Positions 27,985-54,350 of a stretch of DNA of 64,000 nt are shown here, piece after piece; positions within the stretch are counted from its first letter, which is position 1, and every line of letters begins with the position of its first letter. The position numbers were made by a program, and so were the translations under genes. The notes beneath the pieces were generated by a model. The model had not been told where the DNA came from and ran no database searches. It saw only the letters and a list, made by a program, of their open reading frames with translations. This stretch comes from Planctomycetota bacterium (lineage in GTDB: Bacteria > Planctomycetota > Planctomycetia > Gemmatales > Gemmataceae): positions 1-64,000 of the forward strand of contig JAIOPV010000042.1 of the NCBI GenBank assembly GCA_021413735.1. The letters run 5' to 3'.

Positions 27985-28809
27985 ATGCCTCTCGATTGGC
28001 AACTTCCTCCTGGCGTCGATCGCGGTCTGTGGGACTATCTGCACGCCGACGACATGGTCGCAGGCTACGACGAGCAGATGCGTGTGTCCCCACTGGCCGC
28101 AACCGATGTGGCGTTCTGCGAGCGTGCGTTCCCGACGCCTGGAAAGCTGGTCGATCTCGGCTGTGGCACGGGTCGGTTGTGCGTTCACTTCGCGGCGAAG
28201 GGTTACGATTGCGTTGGCGTCGATCTATCCGACGAGATGCTGGCGAAGGCGAAGGAGAACGCGAAGAACCTAACCCCCCAGCCCCCTTCCCGAAGAAGGA
28301 AGGGGGAGCCGGATTTAGCCCCTCTCCTCTTAGGGGAGGGGTTGGGGAGGGGTTCTGCTTCCTTTGTGAAGGGCAATCTTGTCGAGCTGACGGAGTTGCC
28401 TGCCGCGAGCTTCGATTACGCCGCATGTCTGTTCAGCACGCTCGGCATGGTTCGTGGTGCGGACAACCGAGCGAAGGTGGTCGCGAACGCCTTCCGATTG
28501 CTGAAGCCGGGCGGGCGATTCGTGCTGCATGTCCACAATCGCTACTTCGGTGGACTCGGCTGGCGGCGTGTTCTCGGTCAGCGCTGGAAAACGCTCCTCG
28601 GCAACGCACACGCGGGTGATATCACGATGTCACAGGCTTACGGCGGTGCCCCGCTGACGCTGCATCATTTCACGCAGCGCGAGGCGACGGACTTACTTGT
28701 GGCTGCGGGATTCGTGGTGCGGGAAGTGTCTGCGATTGGCGACGATGGCAGACCCGCGACTGGTTCGCGGGCCTATGGCTGGTTGGTGCAAGGGGAACGC
28801 CGACAGTGA
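27985..28809 (+). CDS. SAM-dependent methyltransferase carrying an in-frame repeat insertion
   Basis: A 274-residue class I methyltransferase. LVDLGCGTGRLCVHFAAKG at about 55-73 is motif I, GVDLSDEMLAKAKENAKN follows with the acidic motif II residue, and LKPGGRFVLHVHNRYFGG is the post-motif region. Between them, at about residues 95-125, the frame reads through a repeat (LTPQPPSRRRKGEPDL, then LLLGEGLGRGS), which aligns with nothing in the fold and interrupts the loop after the second strand. The gene stays open, so a functional protein with a surface loop insertion is possible. The start lies at the edge of a palindrome. Confidence 0.85.
   Translation: MPLDWQLPPGVDRGLWDYLHADDMVAGYDEQMRVSPLAATDVAFCERAFPTPGKLVDLGCGTGRLCVHFAAKGYDCVGVDLSDEMLAKAKENAKNLTPQPPSRRRKGEPDLAPLLLGEGLGRGSASFVKGNLVELTELPAASFDYAACLFSTLGMVRGADNRAKVVANAFRLLKPGGRFVLHVHNRYFGGLGWRRVLGQRWKTLLGNAHAGDITMSQAYGGAPLTLHHFTQREATDLLVAAGFVVREVSAIGDDGRPATGSRAYGWLVQGERRQ
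28269..28356. repeat. G/C-rich palindromic repeat inserted in-frame in the methyltransferase gene
   Basis: CCCCCTTCC and GGAAGGGGG form an inner hairpin, CCCCTCTCC and GGGGAGGGG a second, and CTAACCCCCCAGCC at the left pairs with GGTTGGGGAGGGGTT at the right. This G/C-rich type is normally intergenic. Here it is about 88 bases long and leaves the frame open. Confidence 0.85.
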
Positions 28810-44605: not shown

Positions 44606-45844
44606 TCACTTCTTCGCGAACACTTCGACTGGCTTGAATTCACCACCCAGCACGGCCTTCGCATCGACGCCGAGCCATTGCTCCAGCACCGCCGAATACA
44701 CCCGGCGGAAGTCGGTCGCGTGAACGAGATTCCCGTCTTCCAACTTCGTCAGGCTCGGGTGTTCGCCAACGATGCCGGCTTTCACGTTGCCGCCGACCAA
44801 CATCATCGGTGCGCCGCTGCCGTGGTCGGTGCCCTTGCTGCCGTTCTCCTTCGCCCGTCGACCGAACTCCGAGAACGTCATCACGCACAGCCGATCCTTG
44901 TGCCCGTGACCTGCGAGATCACGATAGAACGCTGAGATGCCATCCGAAACTTGCTGCAACAGATCCGCGTGAGCGCCCGTCGCGCCGCCTTGCCCCGAGT
45001 GCGTGTCGAAGCCGTCGAGGGCGACGTAGAAGATGCGGGCACCGATGCCGCCGTCGATGAGTTGCGCCGCGAGCTTCAGCTTGTTCGCGAGTGCCGTGTT
45101 CGGATACGGAACCTTCGGCTTGTATGACTTTCCAAGTGCCGCCAGTTTCTCACTGCTCGCGTAGGTGTTCATCTGCGTGCGAGACACGAAATCCAGCAGT
45201 CCGTTGCCACCACTCGACGTATCAGCAACGCCGGTAATCACGCCCTTCTGAGCAGCACCGTCAGCACCGCTGGCCGCGGATGTCTTCAGTTTGAAGTCGT
45301 CGAGCGACGCCACCGACGGCACCCGCACCGGAGCGCCCGCCAACGCCAACGGAGATGTCTCGTTGCTCGCCGCGAGGTGAAACGCAGGCGACGGCTTCGC
45401 CTTCAGCGTGCGACCGAGCCAACCATCGGTGAGGTTCGCGGCCGTGCTGCCTGCGTGCCAGATGTCCATGCTGCGGAAGTGTGACTGATCCGGGTTCGGG
45501 TAGCCGACGCCTTGCACGACGCACACCGCTGACTCTTCGGTGTAGAGCTTCGCGAGTTCAGCCATCGCAGGGTGAAACGCGATGTCGTCGGTCAGCTTCT
45601 TGACCTTGTCCTTCGCGATGGCGAGGGTTGGTCGCAGCTTGTAGTAGTCGGCGTTCGTAAACGGAATGACGGTGTTCAGGCCGTCGTTGCCACCGGTGAG
45701 TTGCACCACAACGAGAATGGTATCCTTCGCGCCAGGCTTGTCGGCGGTGCGTGCGGCAAGTGCCGACTGCCCGAGGAACGTCGGGATAGTGGCCCCGAAC
45801 CCGAGGAGCGAGGAGTCTTTAAGGAAGTCGCGGCGAGTGGACAT
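44606..45844 (-). CDS. DUF1501 family Tat-exported protein
   Basis: The 412-residue protein starts MSTRRDFLKDSSLLGFGA, a twin-arginine signal. ILVVVQLTGGNDGLNTVIP near residue 43, RSMDIWHAGS, FYVALDGFDTHSGQGG and MTFSEFGRRAKENGS are DUF1501 hallmarks. It belongs to the branch that pairs with DUF1800, unlike the protein at 10987 which pairs with DUF1553. It starts 10 bases after the DUF1800 gene. Confidence 0.94.
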   Translation of the reverse strand: MSTRRDFLKDSSLLGFGATIPTFLGQSALAARTADKPGAKDTILVVVQLTGGNDGLNTVIPFTNADYYKLRPTLAIAKDKVKKLTDDIAFHPAMAELAKLYTEESAVCVVQGVGYPNPDQSHFRSMDIWHAGSTAANLTDGWLGRTLKAKPSPAFHLAASNETSPLALAGAPVRVPSVASLDDFKLKTSAASGADGAAQKGVITGVADTSSGGNGLLDFVSRTQMNTYASSEKLAALGKSYKPKVPYPNTALANKLKLAAQLIDGGIGARIFYVALDGFDTHSGQGGATGAHADLLQQVSDGISAFYRDLAGHGHKDRLCVMTFSEFGRRAKENGSKGTDHGSGAPMMLVGGNVKAGIVGEHPSLTKLEDGNLVHATDFRRVYSAVLEQWLGVDAKAVLGGEFKPVEVFAKK

Positions 45845-45854
45845 GGGAAACTCC

Positions 45855-47237
45855 TCAGTTCAGTTGGAATTCGGGCAGCGTCAGCACCAGATGCGCCACG
45901 GCTCGAACGCGGTGATTGCTCACGTCGCCGACGGACCAGTACGCGGGATACTTCACATGCATCGCGGTCTTCAGGTAATCGTGCAGCCTGTCGCGGGCAG
46001 CGGGTTGCACGTCGCTTTGCAGAAACACGTCGAGCAGGAAATCGACGATCTCGCCGTTGTGCTTCGCCAGCACCGCAGCCGGATCGCAGCGAGAACCGAA
46101 CCGCGTGTCTTCCGTTGATGTGAGCGCCAGCGCGAGGTTGTTGCGACCCAGAAGCGTCTGGGCGTTGAGCCACGCTGGGCCGCCGTCCCAACCTTTCACC
46201 GATGGCGGCGCGAACAACACTTGCCCCAACCCTTCGAGCGATTCCGCTAACGGCAACGCACCGGCCGTGCCCTCCAGTCCGCGAACGATTCCCGTCACGA
46301 ACTCCACCGGCGACTTGATCTTCGCTCGATACGATTCCTTCGCAAAGAACAGATTCGACCGCAGCATCACGGAGACCAGTTTCCCCGTGTCGAAGCCTGA
46401 CTTGCGGTATTCCTCCGCGAGCGGGTCGATGAGTTCAGCCGGGGGAGTGTCCGATTCGCTGATGAGGAAGCGATACAGTTTGCGGACGATGAACCGCGGG
46501 CACGCCGGTTGTTCGAGGCACAGCTTCGCAATGTCATCGCCCTTGAACTTCCCCGATTTGCCGAAGACCTTCTTTTCGCTGCCGTCGTGCTGCCGGTAAC
46601 TGAATGTCGATTTGCCGTAGCTGAGTTCGTAGCCGGTGAACGCCTTCGCAGCCTCGCGAATGTCGGCTTCCGTGTAGTTGCCGATGCCGAGCGAGAACAG
46701 TTCCATCAGTTCGCGAGCGTAGTTCTCGTTCGGGGCAAGTTTCGTGCTCTTGTTCGTATCGAGCCAGACGAGCATGGCGGAATCGGTGCCCATCGCAATG
46801 AGCATCTCGCTGAAGCTGCCGAGGGCGTGCCGTTGCATCAGGTGATATTGATCGAGCATGAAGCGTGCGTTCTTCACCTTGGCGTTGCTGGTCGCGAAGT
46901 GATTGTGCCAGAACAGCGTCAGCTTCTCACGCAGCGGATGAGCCGTCTTGAGCATCCGGTCGAGCCACCACGCCGAGAGACGTTCTTGCGGAGCGCCGCT
47001 CGGCATACTCCGTTCCGACGCCATGAACGCCGACGTGGAACTGAAGTCGTCCGATTCCGCGTGCCCGTCGATGACGCGGGTGAGGGTCTTCAGGTGGCCG
47101 TCTTTGACGCCCGTGTCGAGTTCGGCGGTTGTTGCACCGAACCCCGCACGGCGATAGAGATGCCCAACCTTCCGACGATCCCACGGGTTCGCGTCAGTTG
47201 GTTCGTAGGGTGCCCAGGCCCATTTCGGATCTGTCAT
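45855..47237 (-). CDS. DUF1800 family protein
   Basis: A 460-residue protein. HLYRRAGFGATTAELD near residue 30, LTLFWHNHFATSNAKV, PNENYARELMELFSLG, YTEADIREAAKAFTGY and FLISESDTPP match DUF1800 in order, including the conserved HNHF. It has no clear signal peptide, so it is either exported with its DUF1501 partner or stays inside. The start at 47237 lies 20 bases after the upstream gene's stop. Function is unknown across the family. Confidence 0.93.
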   Translation of the reverse strand: MTDPKWAWAPYEPTDANPWDRRKVGHLYRRAGFGATTAELDTGVKDGHLKTLTRVIDGHAESDDFSSTSAFMASERSMPSGAPQERLSAWWLDRMLKTAHPLREKLTLFWHNHFATSNAKVKNARFMLDQYHLMQRHALGSFSEMLIAMGTDSAMLVWLDTNKSTKLAPNENYARELMELFSLGIGNYTEADIREAAKAFTGYELSYGKSTFSYRQHDGSEKKVFGKSGKFKGDDIAKLCLEQPACPRFIVRKLYRFLISESDTPPAELIDPLAEEYRKSGFDTGKLVSVMLRSNLFFAKESYRAKIKSPVEFVTGIVRGLEGTAGALPLAESLEGLGQVLFAPPSVKGWDGGPAWLNAQTLLGRNNLALALTSTEDTRFGSRCDPAAVLAKHNGEIVDFLLDVFLQSDVQPAARDRLHDYLKTAMHVKYPAYWSVGDVSNHRVRAVAHLVLTLPEFQLN

Positions 47238-47257
47238 GGTGAAATTCCCGCACGGGG

Positions 47258-48979
47258 TTACTTGATGTTCCACACCACATCCACGCGGTATTCCGATTCC
47301 GTGATGTCGAGTTCGACCGCGACCGTGCCGAGCGTCTTCACGAATGCCACGAGGCCGGCCGTTTCTTTGCGTGCGTCCGCCAATCCGATGCCGCGAGTCA
47401 GCACCGAATCGGTCGTCAGCGCATCGGCGAAATCCCCAAGCGTCTGGCCTGCGTTCGCTGCGTTAAACTTGCCCTTCAGCAGAACGGTTGTCGGCTGCGA
47501 CGTGCGAGGTTTCTTCAACTCGGTGATGAGCTTCTTGCCGAGTTCCACGGTCGACGCGAGAACCAACTCCTCGCCCACCACCGCGAAGCACGGCTCAAAG
47601 TTGAACCGCAGCCCGTCCGGATCGTCGGCGAGCGTCTTGTTCTCGGGGAAACGATACACCACAAGCGGCACGCCTTCGTGTTCGAGCTCGGTCAGCTTGA
47701 GGCCGTATTGCAGCGTGCCGATCAGCCCGGCAGCGCGAAGAACCGGATCGAGCGACGGCCCGAACTTCTTGTCGCGAGCACTGCCGACGTATCCGAATGC
47801 GGGCAACTTCCGCGATGGCTCGGTTTTGTACGGTCGCTGATCGTGATTCACGACAACGACGCGGTGATACGGCCCCCACATTTCCAGCAGGTCGCCGAGC
47901 TTCACGTTCGACGGCAATATCTTGGAAATCTGTTTCTCACCCATCTCGATGTTGCCACGCATCTCGTCACTGAGGAGCTTGTCGCGGTTCTTCCACATGT
48001 AGCCGACGTCGAGATGCAAGCTGTGGCTGTAGATCGTGCCGGGGGGTTCCAACAACGGAAGCGTTCCCGGTGCGGTCTTCGGCGGGACGTGCATCGCAAG
48101 TTCCGACCACATGCCCGTGCGACCCGCTGGCATCCGTAATGCGAGACGGAAACCGGTCTTCTCCTGATACAGTCCCAGCGCGAGGAAGTTCGACCGCTGA
48201 ATGGTGTCGATGGTCGCGCCGAGAACGAGCGTCTGGAGGAAGTCTTGCCGTGTGGAGTCGAAGAAGTCTTTCGACGCCTTCGATTTCTTGATGGAGGCGA
48301 GATCGAGCCACAACCACGCCGACGGGTTCTTGGGCAGCAACCCGAGTGTTGCGGCACGAGCCGGATGCGACTGGCGTTTCTTGTCGGTCGCGGTCTTGAT
48401 CGCTGCTTCGAGGTTCGCAGCCTTGTTCGACACCAACAGAGTAGCCGCAATCCGTGCGAAATGAACATCGTCGCCAACCGAGAATGCTTCGACGCCCACG
48501 ATCTTCGTGCGTTTCACGCTGGTCTTGGAACCCTGGCGAGCGAGTTCTTCGTCGATCACTCCAACGATGAGTTCCAGAGCTTTGGCCGACTGCTTCTCGT
48601 CCTTGCCTTCCGCCACGAACACCAGCGGTTGAAGGTCGTCGCCATCGTAATGAAACGCCAACGCGACGCCATTGCCGGCGAGTTGATCGAGGAGTTCGGG
48701 CCACTTCGCCCCGAGATCCTTTTCAGCGAACGCGAGCAGTTGTAGTGCCCGGCGTGCCTGCGCGGAGTCGTAGATTTGGCGAACGGGAGCGAGCTTCTGG
48801 GCGTCCTTGAAGGCATCCAACCCGGTGATGGCCTCGGCGAGCTTGCGGGGGTGATCCGCCACAACCACGACCTGCGCCGACGCTGGCACGCAATCGAGTG
48901 GATCGGCCGCAGCAAGGCGAGCGGAGGACGTGAGTCCTCCGATGAGCAGCGTCAGTGCGGTGAGAGCGAGGCGGAACAT
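47258..48979 (-). CDS. Exported DUF3352-like protein of unknown function
   Basis: The 573-residue protein has a signal peptide ending near ARLAAADP. PLDCVPASAQVVVVADHPRKLAEAI looks like the opening of DUF3352-type proteins, in which a domain measuring about 250 residues repeats (the quoted stretch is split by family position: CVPASAQVVVVADHPRKL). GVEAFSVGDDVHFARIAATLLVSNKA and RAATLGLLPKNPSAWLWLDL resemble the core. It is the first gene of the operon with DUF1800 and DUF1501. The family call is tentative. Confidence 0.75.
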   Translation of the reverse strand: MFRLALTALTLLIGGLTSSARLAAADPLDCVPASAQVVVVADHPRKLAEAITGLDAFKDAQKLAPVRQIYDSAQARRALQLLAFAEKDLGAKWPELLDQLAGNGVALAFHYDGDDLQPLVFVAEGKDEKQSAKALELIVGVIDEELARQGSKTSVKRTKIVGVEAFSVGDDVHFARIAATLLVSNKAANLEAAIKTATDKKRQSHPARAATLGLLPKNPSAWLWLDLASIKKSKASKDFFDSTRQDFLQTLVLGATIDTIQRSNFLALGLYQEKTGFRLALRMPAGRTGMWSELAMHVPPKTAPGTLPLLEPPGTIYSHSLHLDVGYMWKNRDKLLSDEMRGNIEMGEKQISKILPSNVKLGDLLEMWGPYHRVVVVNHDQRPYKTEPSRKLPAFGYVGSARDKKFGPSLDPVLRAAGLIGTLQYGLKLTELEHEGVPLVVYRFPENKTLADDPDGLRFNFEPCFAVVGEELVLASTVELGKKLITELKKPRTSQPTTVLLKGKFNAANAGQTLGDFADALTTDSVLTRGIGLADARKETAGLVAFVKTLGTVAVELDITESEYRVDVVWNIK

Positions 48980-49179
48980 GCGGTGCCTCCGTGAACGATG
49001 TGCGAGGAATTACTCGGCAGAGGACGGCAGAGTTTCAAGTTTCGGCTGCGGATTGCCGTACCCGACCATTCCACAGGAAAACTTACCCAACCCCCAGGGC
49101 GATTCCGTGTTTCCCATTGGGTTTGTGAAGCGCACCCCAGGGCAGCCGTTTTCGCTTGACGGTGCGAGGGTTCCCCAGG
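48980..49179. other. Gap upstream of the DUF3352-like gene
   Basis: The region should hold divergent or leader sequence of the 48979 gene. Nothing convincing is seen beyond a GAGGTAC-like purine stretch; no gene is called. Confidence 0.4.
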
Positions 49180-49401
49180 ACCATTCACTTCACACTCTGT
49201 TCGTTTTCTCGCTGGCATCGCCTGTGCGGTGTTCGCGTTGAGCAGCTCGGCGGTGCCCAAGAACGACGGCCCGTGATCGCGCGGCCGCCTGCGGTTCAAC
49301 CACTGTCGCCTCCGAATCCGAAGAGTCTGGTTCTGGCAACCAAGGGTGCCGACAGCACGGTGCGAATCTGAAACCTCCAGAACAAGGCGAAAAACGCGAC
49401 T
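49180..49401 (+). pseudogene. Remnant of a secreted WD40-repeat gene
   Basis: One frame reads FLAGIACAVFALSSSAVPKN, a signal-peptide-like stretch, and stops at TGA 49274. A second frame continues with a Pro-rich stretch and then SLVLATKGADSTVRI, a WD40 blade end, and stops at a TGA (49369-49371) exactly where the blade's Trp (TGG) is expected. After it NLQNKAKN continues the blade. A frameshift plus a nonsense mutation in a WD40 gene is the simplest reading. No start codon is obvious. Confidence 0.45.
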
Positions 49402-49487
49402 ATCCCGAACCCGCGTTTCGAGCCAGCCAGCATCGACTGCTGCAACTCGCCCGGAAACGTCAACGGCTCGTCGGGGCGACGGTTCTC

Positions 49488-51599
49488 GTGCCTGCCCTTG
49501 ATGCGGGGCTAACTCTGCCGCCGCGTCGCCGAGTTCCGGACGCTCCCTCGCAGGGCGGATACTGCGACGTGACCACGCGCGGCGAACCCGAGCGACTGTT
49601 GCCGTCGCAGTTCGCGCTCGACACGGACGAATTCCTCCGTCGTTTCGCCGCGAAGGAACTGCTCTACTTCCAGCGAGAAGACCCAGACCAACCCGAGTTA
49701 CCCGAGCGTGTGATCGTTCTCGATCAGGGCGTGCGAACGTGGGGAAGCGTGCGGCTCGCGCTCGCCGCTGCCACGTTCTCGCTGTTGGCTCCGCGAGCGA
49801 AACGCTGTGCGTCGGTCCGGTTGTTCCTCACCTCCGCACGCGGACCAATCGACATCACCGGGCAGGATGTGGAAGCCGTCGCCGACCTGCTGGAATCGAG
49901 CGACCTCACACCGGACCCGTTCTCGTGCCTCTTGCTTGCCCTCCACGAGACGGCAAAGGGAACGGCCCCGCGTGACGTGATCCTGCTAACGCATCCGCGA
50001 AGCGTGCGGCATTTCATGACTCCGTTCGAGAACCTGCGACCAAACGACCGCGTGTTCGCGTTGGCGGTCGATGAACGCGGCAAGGCTGAACTCGGCGAAT
50101 GGCTCCTGAGCGGTTTCGCGACGATTCGTTCATTCCGCGTCGACCTTGAGGCAGCCGAGAACGCGAAGCCCGAGAGCGAACTTGATGCTCCGCGACCCGT
50201 GCCCGGCGCGGCAGGCGAATGGACCGGCGACATCGAACCGGTGCCGTTCCCGTTTCGCGTCGGTCTCCTCGCGGAACCGCAGATGTTCGGGTTCGACGCG
50301 ACCGGTGAGTGGCTCGTCATCGTCAGCCAAAACGGTATCCTTCACGGGCTCGCGTTCGACGGCTCGGCAGCGGAAGTGTTGCCGCGAGCGTTTCATGGCA
50401 GTGTGGTTCTCGATCAAGTAGATGCGGTTCTGGGCGTGGCTGGTGGCGTTGTCGTATGCGGGCGAACCAACGCGGGAACGCAACAGCTTCAGCAAGTCGC
50501 GGTTCACTATGACCGGGCGACTCGTCGTGTCACATCGCACCTTCTGGGGCCAGCGATTCTGGAAGCACGCTGGGCCGCGTACCCCGATCTGCATTGCATC
50601 ACGCTCCGCACCGAGACCGTCACCGGCTGCGCTCTCGATCTCGGCACGGGCGGCCGCTACTCCAAGGTCACGGATACCGGGTTGGTGAGCCGTGCCCGCG
50701 GCGCGTGGGACCGCTCCTCGAAGGGCGGCACGCCACCGTTCACACTCCCGGTTCTCTCCAAGACATCGGTTCCTGAGCAGACCACCATAGAGCAACCATA
50801 TCTGAACTTCATCGACAAAGGATTCCGGGTAAGGCGAGCGGAAGGAATCTGGGCGGGCGCGTATTTGTGCAACCCGCTTTGCGACGGCAAGCCGCTTCTC
50901 GAAGGCGCGACGATTCACTCCGCACAGCTCGCGGGCGACGTTCTCGCGTTGTCGTTGCTCAACGCCGGTCAGCGGAAACTTGTGCTGTTCCGTGGACCAC
51001 ACGGAGCCATCCTCGGCGAAGTGACGCACTCGATTCGCTATGCCTTCAGCTTGTCGCCAGATGGGGAGTTGCTCGCCCGCCGCGATGCGATGCGGTCGGT
51101 AGTTGTGTCGAAGTCGGTCGATGCAGCGAAGCCAATCGCCACAGCACCGCACGCCGCGTTGCACAACGCCCTCGACGTTCGCCTTGATGCGGAGCCGTTC
51201 CGGCTGACCATCGCCATCGGCACGTTCGCGCACACCTTCCGCTTGCTGAACGGCGAACTGCGGTACTCGCTCGCCCTTGGCTGGGACAACTTCCCCGAAC
51301 CGAAAGTGCCGTTCACGGCACTGGCGCGGCAAGCTTCACCGATCAAGTACGATGAGGGACGTTTCCCCAGCAACGAAGGAGCGGCGTCTGGCCCGTGGCG
51401 TGCGGTCCTTGATCGACTCGGGCAGGTGCTGCTGTACGCGAAGGGTGAACTTGTCGCGGTGTTCGTGGTTCGTCGGGAACGAGCGGCTGCGTGGATTCCG
51501 GGCGGCGTGTTCTGGGGCACGCCAGCGTTGATCGGCGGTCCCGCGACCCCCGACGCCGAGAAGAAGATCGGCCGTGCGATTCAGAATGCGGGAGGGTGA
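49488..51599 (+). CDS. vWA-like/beta-propeller protein of a MoxR-vWA-beta-propeller-type system, probably 5'-truncated
   Basis: The 703-residue product from a GTG start opens PALDAGLTLPPRRRVPDAP. VIVLDQGVRTWGSVRLALAAA near residue 75 looks like a von Willebrand A first strand without the DxSxS metal site. VILLTHPRSVRHF and FALAVDERGKAEL would be later strands, and from about 250 to the end the sequence is a beta-propeller of WD40-like blades. Before the GTG the same frame continues to code (RDYPEPAF, HRLLQLARKRQRLVGATVL) back to about 49383, with no start codon. The gene therefore seems to have lost its 5' part. It precedes a TPR/beta-propeller gene by three bases. Confidence 0.75.
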   Translation: MPALDAGLTLPPRRRVPDAPSQGGYCDVTTRGEPERLLPSQFALDTDEFLRRFAAKELLYFQREDPDQPELPERVIVLDQGVRTWGSVRLALAAATFSLLAPRAKRCASVRLFLTSARGPIDITGQDVEAVADLLESSDLTPDPFSCLLLALHETAKGTAPRDVILLTHPRSVRHFMTPFENLRPNDRVFALAVDERGKAELGEWLLSGFATIRSFRVDLEAAENAKPESELDAPRPVPGAAGEWTGDIEPVPFPFRVGLLAEPQMFGFDATGEWLVIVSQNGILHGLAFDGSAAEVLPRAFHGSVVLDQVDAVLGVAGGVVVCGRTNAGTQQLQQVAVHYDRATRRVTSHLLGPAILEARWAAYPDLHCITLRTETVTGCALDLGTGGRYSKVTDTGLVSRARGAWDRSSKGGTPPFTLPVLSKTSVPEQTTIEQPYLNFIDKGFRVRRAEGIWAGAYLCNPLCDGKPLLEGATIHSAQLAGDVLALSLLNAGQRKLVLFRGPHGAILGEVTHSIRYAFSLSPDGELLARRDAMRSVVVSKSVDAAKPIATAPHAALHNALDVRLDAEPFRLTIAIGTFAHTFRLLNGELRYSLALGWDNFPEPKVPFTALARQASPIKYDEGRFPSNEGAASGPWRAVLDRLGQVLLYAKGELVAVFVVRRERAAAWIPGGVFWGTPALIGGPATPDAEKKIGRAIQNAGG

Positions 51600-51602
51600 G
51601 CA

Positions 51603-54350
51603 GTGGAAGTTCCGTTCAGACTGACGCGACGCGAAGTACCCACCGCCGCCGATGCGTACTTGCTGTTCGCCACGGACGCGACGCCATTGGTCGATGCGTG
51701 CGTGCGTCTCGGTGGCGAAGCGCCGCCTGCCGTGTTCGCGGTTCGTGGCGGCTTTGTCGTGATGCCTCCATACGCCGAAACGCGAACGCTTCCGGGCGCG
51801 ATTCGTCTCCGTCGCATTGGAGGCGATCTGTTCATCCCTGCCGACGCCGACCTCGTGCCGTCGCTCCTGCTGGATGAAACCGCGGTTCTCTCGCAGAAAC
51901 GCGGGTTGATCGTGCTGCCGGGCGGCGAAGTGCTGTCGTTCATCCCAACGCCGCTCCCGGTCACCAAGTGGCTGGCACCGATCTGCGTTCGTCGTGATGA
52001 ATGGCAATCGTTTCCGCCGCGACCGGATCGACCCGAAACGCTGAGCGTGATCGAACGGCCATCACCGCCCGCGTCCCTGATGGAGATGCTCGGCGAAGGT
52101 GCCCCCGACGACGCGAACCCACTCTCTGACGCGACCGGCGTACCGGAAGATGCGAGGCCGCCAGCTTCTGGTTCGACGCTGAGCAATCTGGCCGCGAACG
52201 TGAACCTTGCGGTCGGCGGCTTCCTCACGTGGCTCGGCAAGCAACTCGGTGCATCGGGGCTCGCTCGGCTTGGCGGCAACCTTGCCCGCAAGGCGTTGGA
52301 AGCCGTGCCGCGACTCAGCGAGAAGGTTCTCGGCCAACAGGAAGCGGCGTTGCGGGAAGTGCTGCGGCAGCTTCAATCAGGTGACATCGAGAAGGGGCTT
52401 CGTCGCGCTCCGATTGCTGTCGGCGACCCGGATCAACCCGCGAAGGTTGGCACCAACGCCCGGCTTGGCAATCGCGATCCGCGTTACTCGCTGCGTGATC
52501 TGATCGGCACCGGGGGTGGCAGCGCAACCACGTGGCTCGGTGGCGGTGACATCTGGAATGAACTGGCTCGCGAGTATCGCAAGCTCGCGGAGGAGGCGAC
52601 CGCACGAGGCGACTTCCGGCGTGCCGCGTATTTGTACGGCGTGTTACTGCGTGATCTTCGCAGTGCCGCGAATGTGCTCATGGCTGGCGGGCTGTGTCGC
52701 GATGCGGCGCTGCTGTACCGCGATCGGCTGAATGATCCGTTGGCGGCCGCGAATGCGTTCGAGCGTGCCGGCGATCACGACGAAGCGCTGCGGCTCTTCG
52801 AGAAGTACGAACACTTCGAGAAGGCAGCGGAGTTGCTGCGACGCATCGGCGACGAAGACCGTGCCGTGGCGTACTACGTTCGGGCTGCGGACTTGCTTGC
52901 GAAACGCGGCTTCTTGCTCGGGGCCGGTGATCTGATTCGCATGAAGGCCGGTCGGCGTGATCTCGCCATCGGGTACTACGAACGCGGTTGGAATGGCATC
53001 TCTGCCGAGGTTCTAAGCTGTGGCGAACGACTGCTCGACGAGCATCTCATCGCGGAGGACATGCCACGGGTTCAGGAGTTGCTTACGGATGCGGAAGCCC
53101 GACTCGCGGATCGGGCGAGCGACGCGGGGCACTTCTTCAACTATGCACTGGATGTCGGCAAACCGTTCCTTTCGCCCGAGATGCGAGACGACCTGACCGA
53201 CCGCGTGCGGTTGCTGTTCGCGGCTCATCTGCGTTCAACCGGAAGTTCGACCGAGGGCGTGCGCCTCGCTCGTGAGTTGTTCGGACAGAATCAACCGTGG
53301 CCGGGTCCGGTGGTGCGAGACGCGAGTTTCGCTGTGCTTCACAAGGATCGCGTTCCGCCTGTCGTGGCGGCTCCGAAACATTCGCCACCGGTGAAACTGG
53401 GGAACGGCACCGTGACGGCTGTGGCCGTAGCTCGCGGCACAGCCGATATCGTCGTGGCGACAGAACAGGCCGTGGTGCTGTGGCGAGTCGACGAGAACCG
53501 CGTGGTGCTGGTGACGCCTCTCACGAACGGACCCATCTTTGCGTTGTCGGTCAACTCCACCGGCGAGATCGTGTACGGGCTCCAAGATCGCGGAACCGTG
53601 GCTCTGTGGTGTTTCGAGGCCGAGAGCAAGAATGCCTTTCGCAGTGGCGGCGTGGTGGACGACCTGTCCCAAGACTCCCAGGAAGATTCATGGTACTTGC
53701 AACCCTCCCCGGCGATCCGAAACCACGAATATCGGATTACGGTTCACACCCCTGTGTTGAACAAAACGTATATCGGTCCGAACTTGAAACGAGACTCAAC
53801 GGACGTGTTTCTCACTGGAACTTTGGAAACGCATTTGCTCGTCGAAACGGCCGAAACCCGTGGGGACATTTGGGAATGGTCCGACGGTTTGGTCAGGCAT
53901 TGGACTCGCTCAAACGCAGGCAACGTGGGTTTCCCAAGCTCTCGTTGGCACGCTCCGTGGAATCCGCTTAGAGCGAACGTCGGGGGAGTAGTGGATTGGA
54001 TCGCTCCCGGAACTGGAATACTGGAAGTTGCTGGCATCGATACGGAGGGTTGCCTTCACTGGGCAAGATTCTCAGGTGAAGACAACCGCGACCCAGGACA
54101 GCGCGACGCCCACCGCCCACCGCCCGATCGGTACGTCGCGGCGTGTCTCACCGGTTCGGGGGCAGTCGTCGCGGTGAATGCGCACAACGAGGTGAATTGG
54201 TTTCGCGTCGCCGGGACATCGCTTGAGGTCACCGCCACGCTCACGCTCGATGTGCCGACGCCTGCGGTCACTCTCGTCGCTCGCCCCGCACAGAACGAAG
54301 TCGTCGCCATCCTCGCCGACAGTTCCGCCATTCGCTTCAAGAACCCGTGA
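51603..54350 (+). CDS. bpX6-like N-terminal, TPR-like and beta-propeller protein
   Basis: A 915-residue protein from a GTG start. The N-terminal 120 residues (VFAVRGGFVVMPPYAE, GAIRLRRIGGDLFIPADADL, RGLIVLPGGEVLSFIP) resemble the bpX6-type domain of ternary systems. Then come a disordered linker (about 155-200), an amphipathic region (ANVNLAVGGFLTWLGKQLG), TPR-like repeats at about 320-480 (DFRRAAYLYGVLL, AANAFERAGDHDEALRLFEKY, HFEKAAELLRRIGDEDRA) and a C-terminal beta-propeller. These proteins act with a MoxR AAA+ ATPase and vWA partner, none of which is in the window. Function is unknown. Confidence 0.75.
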   Translation: MEVPFRLTRREVPTAADAYLLFATDATPLVDACVRLGGEAPPAVFAVRGGFVVMPPYAETRTLPGAIRLRRIGGDLFIPADADLVPSLLLDETAVLSQKRGLIVLPGGEVLSFIPTPLPVTKWLAPICVRRDEWQSFPPRPDRPETLSVIERPSPPASLMEMLGEGAPDDANPLSDATGVPEDARPPASGSTLSNLAANVNLAVGGFLTWLGKQLGASGLARLGGNLARKALEAVPRLSEKVLGQQEAALREVLRQLQSGDIEKGLRRAPIAVGDPDQPAKVGTNARLGNRDPRYSLRDLIGTGGGSATTWLGGGDIWNELAREYRKLAEEATARGDFRRAAYLYGVLLRDLRSAANVLMAGGLCRDAALLYRDRLNDPLAAANAFERAGDHDEALRLFEKYEHFEKAAELLRRIGDEDRAVAYYVRAADLLAKRGFLLGAGDLIRMKAGRRDLAIGYYERGWNGISAEVLSCGERLLDEHLIAEDMPRVQELLTDAEARLADRASDAGHFFNYALDVGKPFLSPEMRDDLTDRVRLLFAAHLRSTGSSTEGVRLARELFGQNQPWPGPVVRDASFAVLHKDRVPPVVAAPKHSPPVKLGNGTVTAVAVARGTADIVVATEQAVVLWRVDENRVVLVTPLTNGPIFALSVNSTGEIVYGLQDRGTVALWCFEAESKNAFRSGGVVDDLSQDSQEDSWYLQPSPAIRNHEYRITVHTPVLNKTYIGPNLKRDSTDVFLTGTLETHLLVETAETRGDIWEWSDGLVRHWTRSNAGNVGFPSSRWHAPWNPLRANVGGVVDWIAPGTGILEVAGIDTEGCLHWARFSGEDNRDPGQRDAHRPPPDRYVAACLTGSGAVVAVNAHNEVNWFRVAGTSLEVTATLTLDVPTPAVTLVARPAQNEVVAILADSSAIRFKNP

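Follow-up and report, generated by a model that had tools for sequence, protein, structure and literature searches.

A MoxR-vWA-beta-propeller ternary system apparently split over two contigs in a Planctomycetota genome

Two adjacent genes in the window, the 64,000-nucleotide stretch of Planctomycetota DNA analysed here, resemble components of MoxR-vWA-beta-propeller ternary systems and raise the question of whether they are a remnant, as the original prediction had it, or members of a system whose other parts lie elsewhere in the genome. These systems are defined by bpX domains and constitute vWA-MoxR subsystem 4, for which a ternary complex and a role in biological conflict were proposed from sequence (Kaur et al. 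2020, PMC7159879). The corresponding Pfam families are bpX0-bpX4 and bpMoxR. A literature search retrieved no experiment on this subsystem.

Both predicted ORFs are present, on the same strand (+) and 3 bp apart (Table 1). A search of the two for bpX domains returned bpX1 and bpX3, each over its Pfam cut-off, so the outcome of no remote match did not occur and the proposed family assignment stands. In the first protein, bpX1 forms the C-terminus (residues 635-701; E 3.4e-11, 43.3 bits against a cut-off of 27). Its AlphaFold2 model (pLDDT 84.5) displays an alpha/beta region at residues 66-225 followed by a propeller, which superimposes on WD40-type structures with Z of ~12-13 over ~240 residues (rmsd ~4 A); the protein thereby combines a vWA component, a C-terminal propeller and bpX1, as in ternary systems. 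It is 71% identical to the product of a gene in the related genome G008, which is 942 aa long and includes bpX0, and gene 1 reads as an N-terminally truncated relative of such a bpX0-vWA-propeller-bpX1 gene.

The second protein had been described as bpX6-like, an identity dropped here: residues 7-164 match Pfam bpX3 (E 1.8e-16, 60.7 bits, above the curated cut-off), and bpX6 was not seen in the Pfam search. Residues 1-915 align to the G008 homologue at 64% identity. The AlphaFold2 model consists of an N-terminal alpha+beta domain, a helical solenoid and a propeller similar to solved WD40 propellers (Z 22-23, rmsd ~3.5 A, ~295 residues), with weak Pfam TPR matches in the middle (about residues 314-436). 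Models and Pfam together bear out the vWA-plus-propeller and TPR-plus-propeller architectures that had been proposed. The central TPR region had been thought uncommon, but it belongs to the standard architecture, the third component typically combining TPRs with a propeller (Kaur et al. 2020, PMC7159879), as gene 2 does. Across homologues, column entropy in the bpX3 protein is lowest in the solenoid/TPR region (1.62), and variability peaks in propeller stretches, in this protein as in the vWA protein. In 28 planctomycete homologues, other stretches vary more than the bpX3 N-terminus, in which hydropathy reveals no clear membrane helix. Should the systems serve to recognise variable targets, the propellers would offer the likelier surface in this clade.

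Table 1. Features of the gene pair and of the sequence immediately upstream (window coordinates).
Feature	Position	Strand	Remarks
Probable WD40-blade relic with in-frame stop	49300..49400	+	Weak WD40 matches; lies just before the break and outside the operon
~18 in-frame codons homologous to G008 residues ~199-216	49434..49487	+	tblastn/blastp of relatives' N-termini against the window
Gene 1, vWA-like / beta-propeller / bpX1 protein	49488..51599	+	703 aa as called, GTG start; Pfam bpX1
DQGVRTWG (residues 79-86), conserved motif in place of DxSxS	49722..49745	+	End of first vWA strand (strand 73-78 in model)
L-T-H (residues 167-169), second MIDAS aspartate position = His	49986..49994	+	Strand 162-168 in model
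Beta-propeller region of gene 1	50241..51287	+	About residues 252-600; WD40-type structure matches
bpX1 domain	51390..51590	+	Pfam
Gene 2, bpX3-TPR-propeller protein	51603..54350	+	915 aa, GTG start; Pfam bpX3; full length against relatives
bpX3 domain	51621..52094	+	Pfam
TPR-like helical solenoid	52545..53342	+	Residues ~315-580; helices in model; most conserved part of protein
C-terminal WD40-type beta-propeller	53364..54347	+	Residues 588-915; match to solved WD40 propellers

As had been noticed from the sequence, DxSxS is absent from the vWA-like strand. The position holds D79-Q-G-V-R83, part of a DQGVRTWG motif that is invariant in 34 aligned homologues, and two more distant homologues carry DVGLRMWG and DSGIRSWG instead. 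At the second aspartate position, T168 is invariant and H169 occurs in at least 90% of the 34, so that DQGVR and LTH replace both MIDAS elements in all or nearly all of them. Because DQGVRTWG is kept throughout this set, the absence of DxSxS is a family trait and not decay; the vWA domains of this subsystem may be without one or both aspartates (Kaur et al. 2020, PMC7159879). The order of alpha/beta elements in the model fits a vWA fold. The PDB match lists for the whole protein are filled by the propeller and include no solved vWA structure among the matches listed, and a profile search of the PDB also gave no significant one; Pfam VWA_3 matched one of 27 homologues, at E 0.12. The segment just N-terminal of the vWA region is similar to Pfam ivWA (PF19997; hhalign probability 96.8%, E 3e-10, 52 columns), the vWA component of FtsH ternary systems, with the shared motif GGY..TRG..LL.SQ.A..ELLYY.RE. 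This likeness was found in the pre-vWA segment only, whereas the DQGVRTWG region did not align. The ivWA genes in G030 and G057 are the ones weakly matched by the window vWA protein. The invariant DQGVRTWG motif is an obvious place to probe how a vWA protein that lacks a MIDAS site is coupled to a MoxR ATPase. An ivWA gene (PF19997, 148 bits) is also carried by contig C150 of the window genome (L134:8243-9925), with no MoxR on C150 among the matches listed.

The original prediction that no MoxR or vWA partner accompanies the pair holds around the two genes and past the end of the window: none was seen at 46-58 kb of the window, and similarity searches of the next 19 kb of the same contig (C214:64001-83000) retrieved no MoxR/vWA gene. 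The suggested genome-wide search located the MoxR partner on another contig, C244. The genome (G000; 9.8 Mb, 293 contigs) contains a single gene each for bpX1, bpX2 and bpX3, together with one strong bpMoxR gene (C244:31783-32397, about 309-310 bits; next MoxR, 208). On C244, genes for bpX4 (132 bits), bpMoxR (about 309 bits) and bpX2 (159 bits) stand side by side. The P-loop of the C244 MoxR, GPPGTAKS at residue 45, conforms to GxxxTAKS, the variant that Kaur et al. (2020, PMC7159879) describe for this subsystem. Since bpMoxR lies on C244 and none is found near the window pair, the MoxR partner is present but unlinked; the components, whose linkage is typical and not universal, are split over C244 and C214. 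The bpX2 gene ends about where the vWA gene should begin. This bpX2 gene also possesses an in-frame N-terminal insert of ~50-55 aa (L042:4890-5045) derived from a palindromic G-rich/C-rich repeat, and a related copy is located at window positions 28269-28291 (-), with 1 mismatch in 23.

Relatives display the collinear order bpX4-MoxR-bpX2-[bpX0-vWA-propeller-bpX1]-[bpX3-TPR-propeller], observed in G008, G013, G012, G016, G009, G007, G050, G051, G095 and others. A scan of 84,980 species genomes returned 35 loci, all from Planctomycetota or their MAGs with two exceptions, a short Rhodocyclaceae-labelled contig and a record titled just 'Bacterium'. By count from the locus table, MoxR, bpX2 and the vWA gene follow in that order in 30 of the 32 Planctomycetota loci with enough contig, bpX4 being undetected in four of the 30; the exceptions are L092 and L088 (Zavarzinella formosa). 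In L092, an uncultured Gemmataceae contig, MoxR and bpX4 stand in inverted orientation on the other side, downstream of bpX3. In another locus (L047, genome G016), the vWA and bpX3 genes are both split by apparent frameshifts, attributable to sequencing error or decay. Across 99 related genomes, MoxR, vWA and bpX3 occur together almost without exception: MoxR (E <= 1e-90) is found in 20 and bpX3 (E <= 1e-20) in 21, the bpX3 set being the MoxR set plus G055, in which the vWA gene sits at a contig end. The components of Z. formosa (G028) occupy four separate loci, with MoxR at C2:276 kb, bpX3 at C2:121 kb, the vWA gene on C5 and bpX2 on C11 (L111, L112, L055 and L137). This dispersal, with the parts kept, is independent of the split in the window genome.

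The break falls inside the vWA gene. In relatives its product measures about 940-970 aa with bpX0 at the start, and bpX0 is present in all close relatives with enough contig. Homology to that gene starts at about 49434 of the window (G008 residue ~199), upstream of the first ATG/GTG/TTG, and this position therefore marks the break. The missing ~195 N-terminal residues, bpX0 included, were not found in the rest of the assembly, where only chance-level matches were obtained. On C244, bpX2 is followed by CCTGAACGCACTCGAA, which looks like the opening codons of the vWA gene and may be a ~5-codon stub, a tentative reading made by eye over about 12 bases; the sequence past it is unrelated. A cellulase gene precedes bpX4 on C244, and likewise in G035. 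This common neighbourhood, seen in one other genome, suggests that the arrangement on C244 is the older one and that it was the window half that relocated. On the window side, the stretch immediately before the break, translated with X in place of the stop, gives weak WD40 protein matches (best E 7.6e-4) and none in Pfam. No long repeat was found at the break to explain the rearrangement. A ~44 bp segment upstream of it (window 49095-49138) has 91-93% identical copies on C59, C282, C226 and C232 and shorter copies elsewhere.

The sequence that remains is constrained. No stop or frameshift interrupts the 703 + 915 codons of the pair. Where at least 90% of homologues agree, the window sequence differs at 0/82 positions in the vWA protein and 3/84 in the bpX3 protein, compared with 1/82 and 2/83 for G008. 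All five gene trees group the window genome with G008 and G013, with modest support (51-93 where given); distances to the outgroup G012 are similar for the three genomes, and branch lengths are normal for vWA and bpX3. The bpX3 dN/dS between the window genome and G008 is 0.125, a rough value given that dS, near 1.9, is saturated. This pattern argues against long decay but not against recent silencing, since most of the constraint may predate the break.

What had been termed a remnant is a split system rather than an orphan one. The term stands insofar as the operon is broken and the vWA gene has lost ~195 codons at its 5' end; it does not stand if an orphan is meant, given that bpX4, bpMoxR and bpX2 persist on C244 and no relaxed constraint is detected. 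We consider it likely that the pair are genuine ternary-system components, and that a five-gene operon was broken within the vWA gene and dispersed in this genome. Against this reading, the vWA gene has no obvious start, Shine-Dalgarno sequence or promoter after the break, the first GTG corresponds to a codon within the ancestral gene, and the bpX0 region was not found in the genome. The same observations would fit a pair recently truncated at the 5' end and silent, with the vWA promoter, start and bpX0 lost and both genes on the way out, as would the relic with its stop codon just upstream. We judge such silencing unlikely, however, in view of the intact ORFs, the unaltered conserved vWA positions, outgroup branch lengths equal to those of intact relatives and the retention of the other components, in Z. 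formosa as well as here; moreover, only ~62% of vWA components have a long helical N-terminal region (Kaur et al. 2020, PMC7159879).

The split could also be an artefact in which the real operon is intact and C244 and C214 are chimeric. The assembly is a draft (293 contigs, 95.7% complete) and ~600 bp of the expected gene are missing, but these ~600 bp occur in no other contig, and both breaks are well away from contig ends (49 kb into 86 kb and ~34 kb into 52 kb). Furthermore, of the 456 bp preceding the break in the window only ~45 bp have matches in other parts of the genome, and the C244 cellulase neighbour recurs in G035, making misassembly rather improbable. An independent two-gene module working without MoxR would account for a pair that stands without MoxR in the window. 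It is very hard to reconcile with the finding that, of 21 genomes carrying a bpX3 relative, 20 also have a close MoxR relative, the window genome among these 20 and G055 the exception; no complete genome with vWA-bpX1 and bpX3 but without bpMoxR has been seen so far.

Under the preferred reading of a broken and dispersed operon, bpX4, bpMoxR and bpX2 would have stayed on C244, with the window containing the 3' portion of the vWA gene and the complete bpX3 gene, and about 195 codons with the bpX0 domain gone or unassembled. By analogy with RavA-ViaA and the proposals of Kaur et al., a MoxR hexamer would hydrolyse ATP and, via the vWA/propeller protein as co-chaperone, remodel or assemble a complex with the bpX3-TPR-propeller protein as third component, whose propellers may recognise partners or targets. 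The split parts probably still work in trans, because unlinked parts are retained in two lineages (this one and Z. formosa) and MoxR, vWA and bpX3 co-occur; any part in conflict or defence would likewise be conjectural for this locus. The balance is even on a broader proposal, that the machine tolerates complete dispersal of its operon, here and independently in Z. formosa, with its parts under normal constraint, and that the vWA protein here works without bpX0, via the non-MIDAS DQGVRTWG.

The pair belongs to a known kind of system, ordinary in kind and mildly unusual in organisation. It shares with the ternary systems of Kaur et al. all component domains, a vWA protein with C-terminal propeller, a TPR-propeller third component, the GxxxTAKS P-loop, a divergent vWA and occurrence in Planctomycetota. 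It differs in that the operon lies on two contigs with the vWA gene truncated before bpX0, and in that the bpX3 N-terminus in this clade is neither hypervariable nor clearly membrane-associated, the propellers varying most. The pairing of a MoxR AAA+ ATPase with a vWA co-chaperone also resembles RavA-ViaA of E. coli, RavA being the closest solved relative of the C244 MoxR (163 bits). To our knowledge, ViaA has no propeller or bpX domain, and RavA-ViaA no third TPR-propeller component. Searches of the defence-system library PADLOC and of NCBIfam gave nothing useful. What seemed an orphan becomes a core set that is complete although split, and it offers a natural experiment on which components are needed: in genomes with a dispersed system, such as this one and Z. 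formosa, the contribution of gene linkage can be told apart from function, and the truncated vWA gene raises the question of whether bpX0 is dispensable.

Two flanking candidates for membership were rejected, the downstream metallophosphoesterase gene and the upstream DUF1501-DUF1800 cluster, each of which is conserved within the genus yet lies away from the operon there. The latter (window 44606-48979, -) encodes DUF1501, DUF1800 and a 573 aa protein, a three-gene order kept in G016, G006 and G007.
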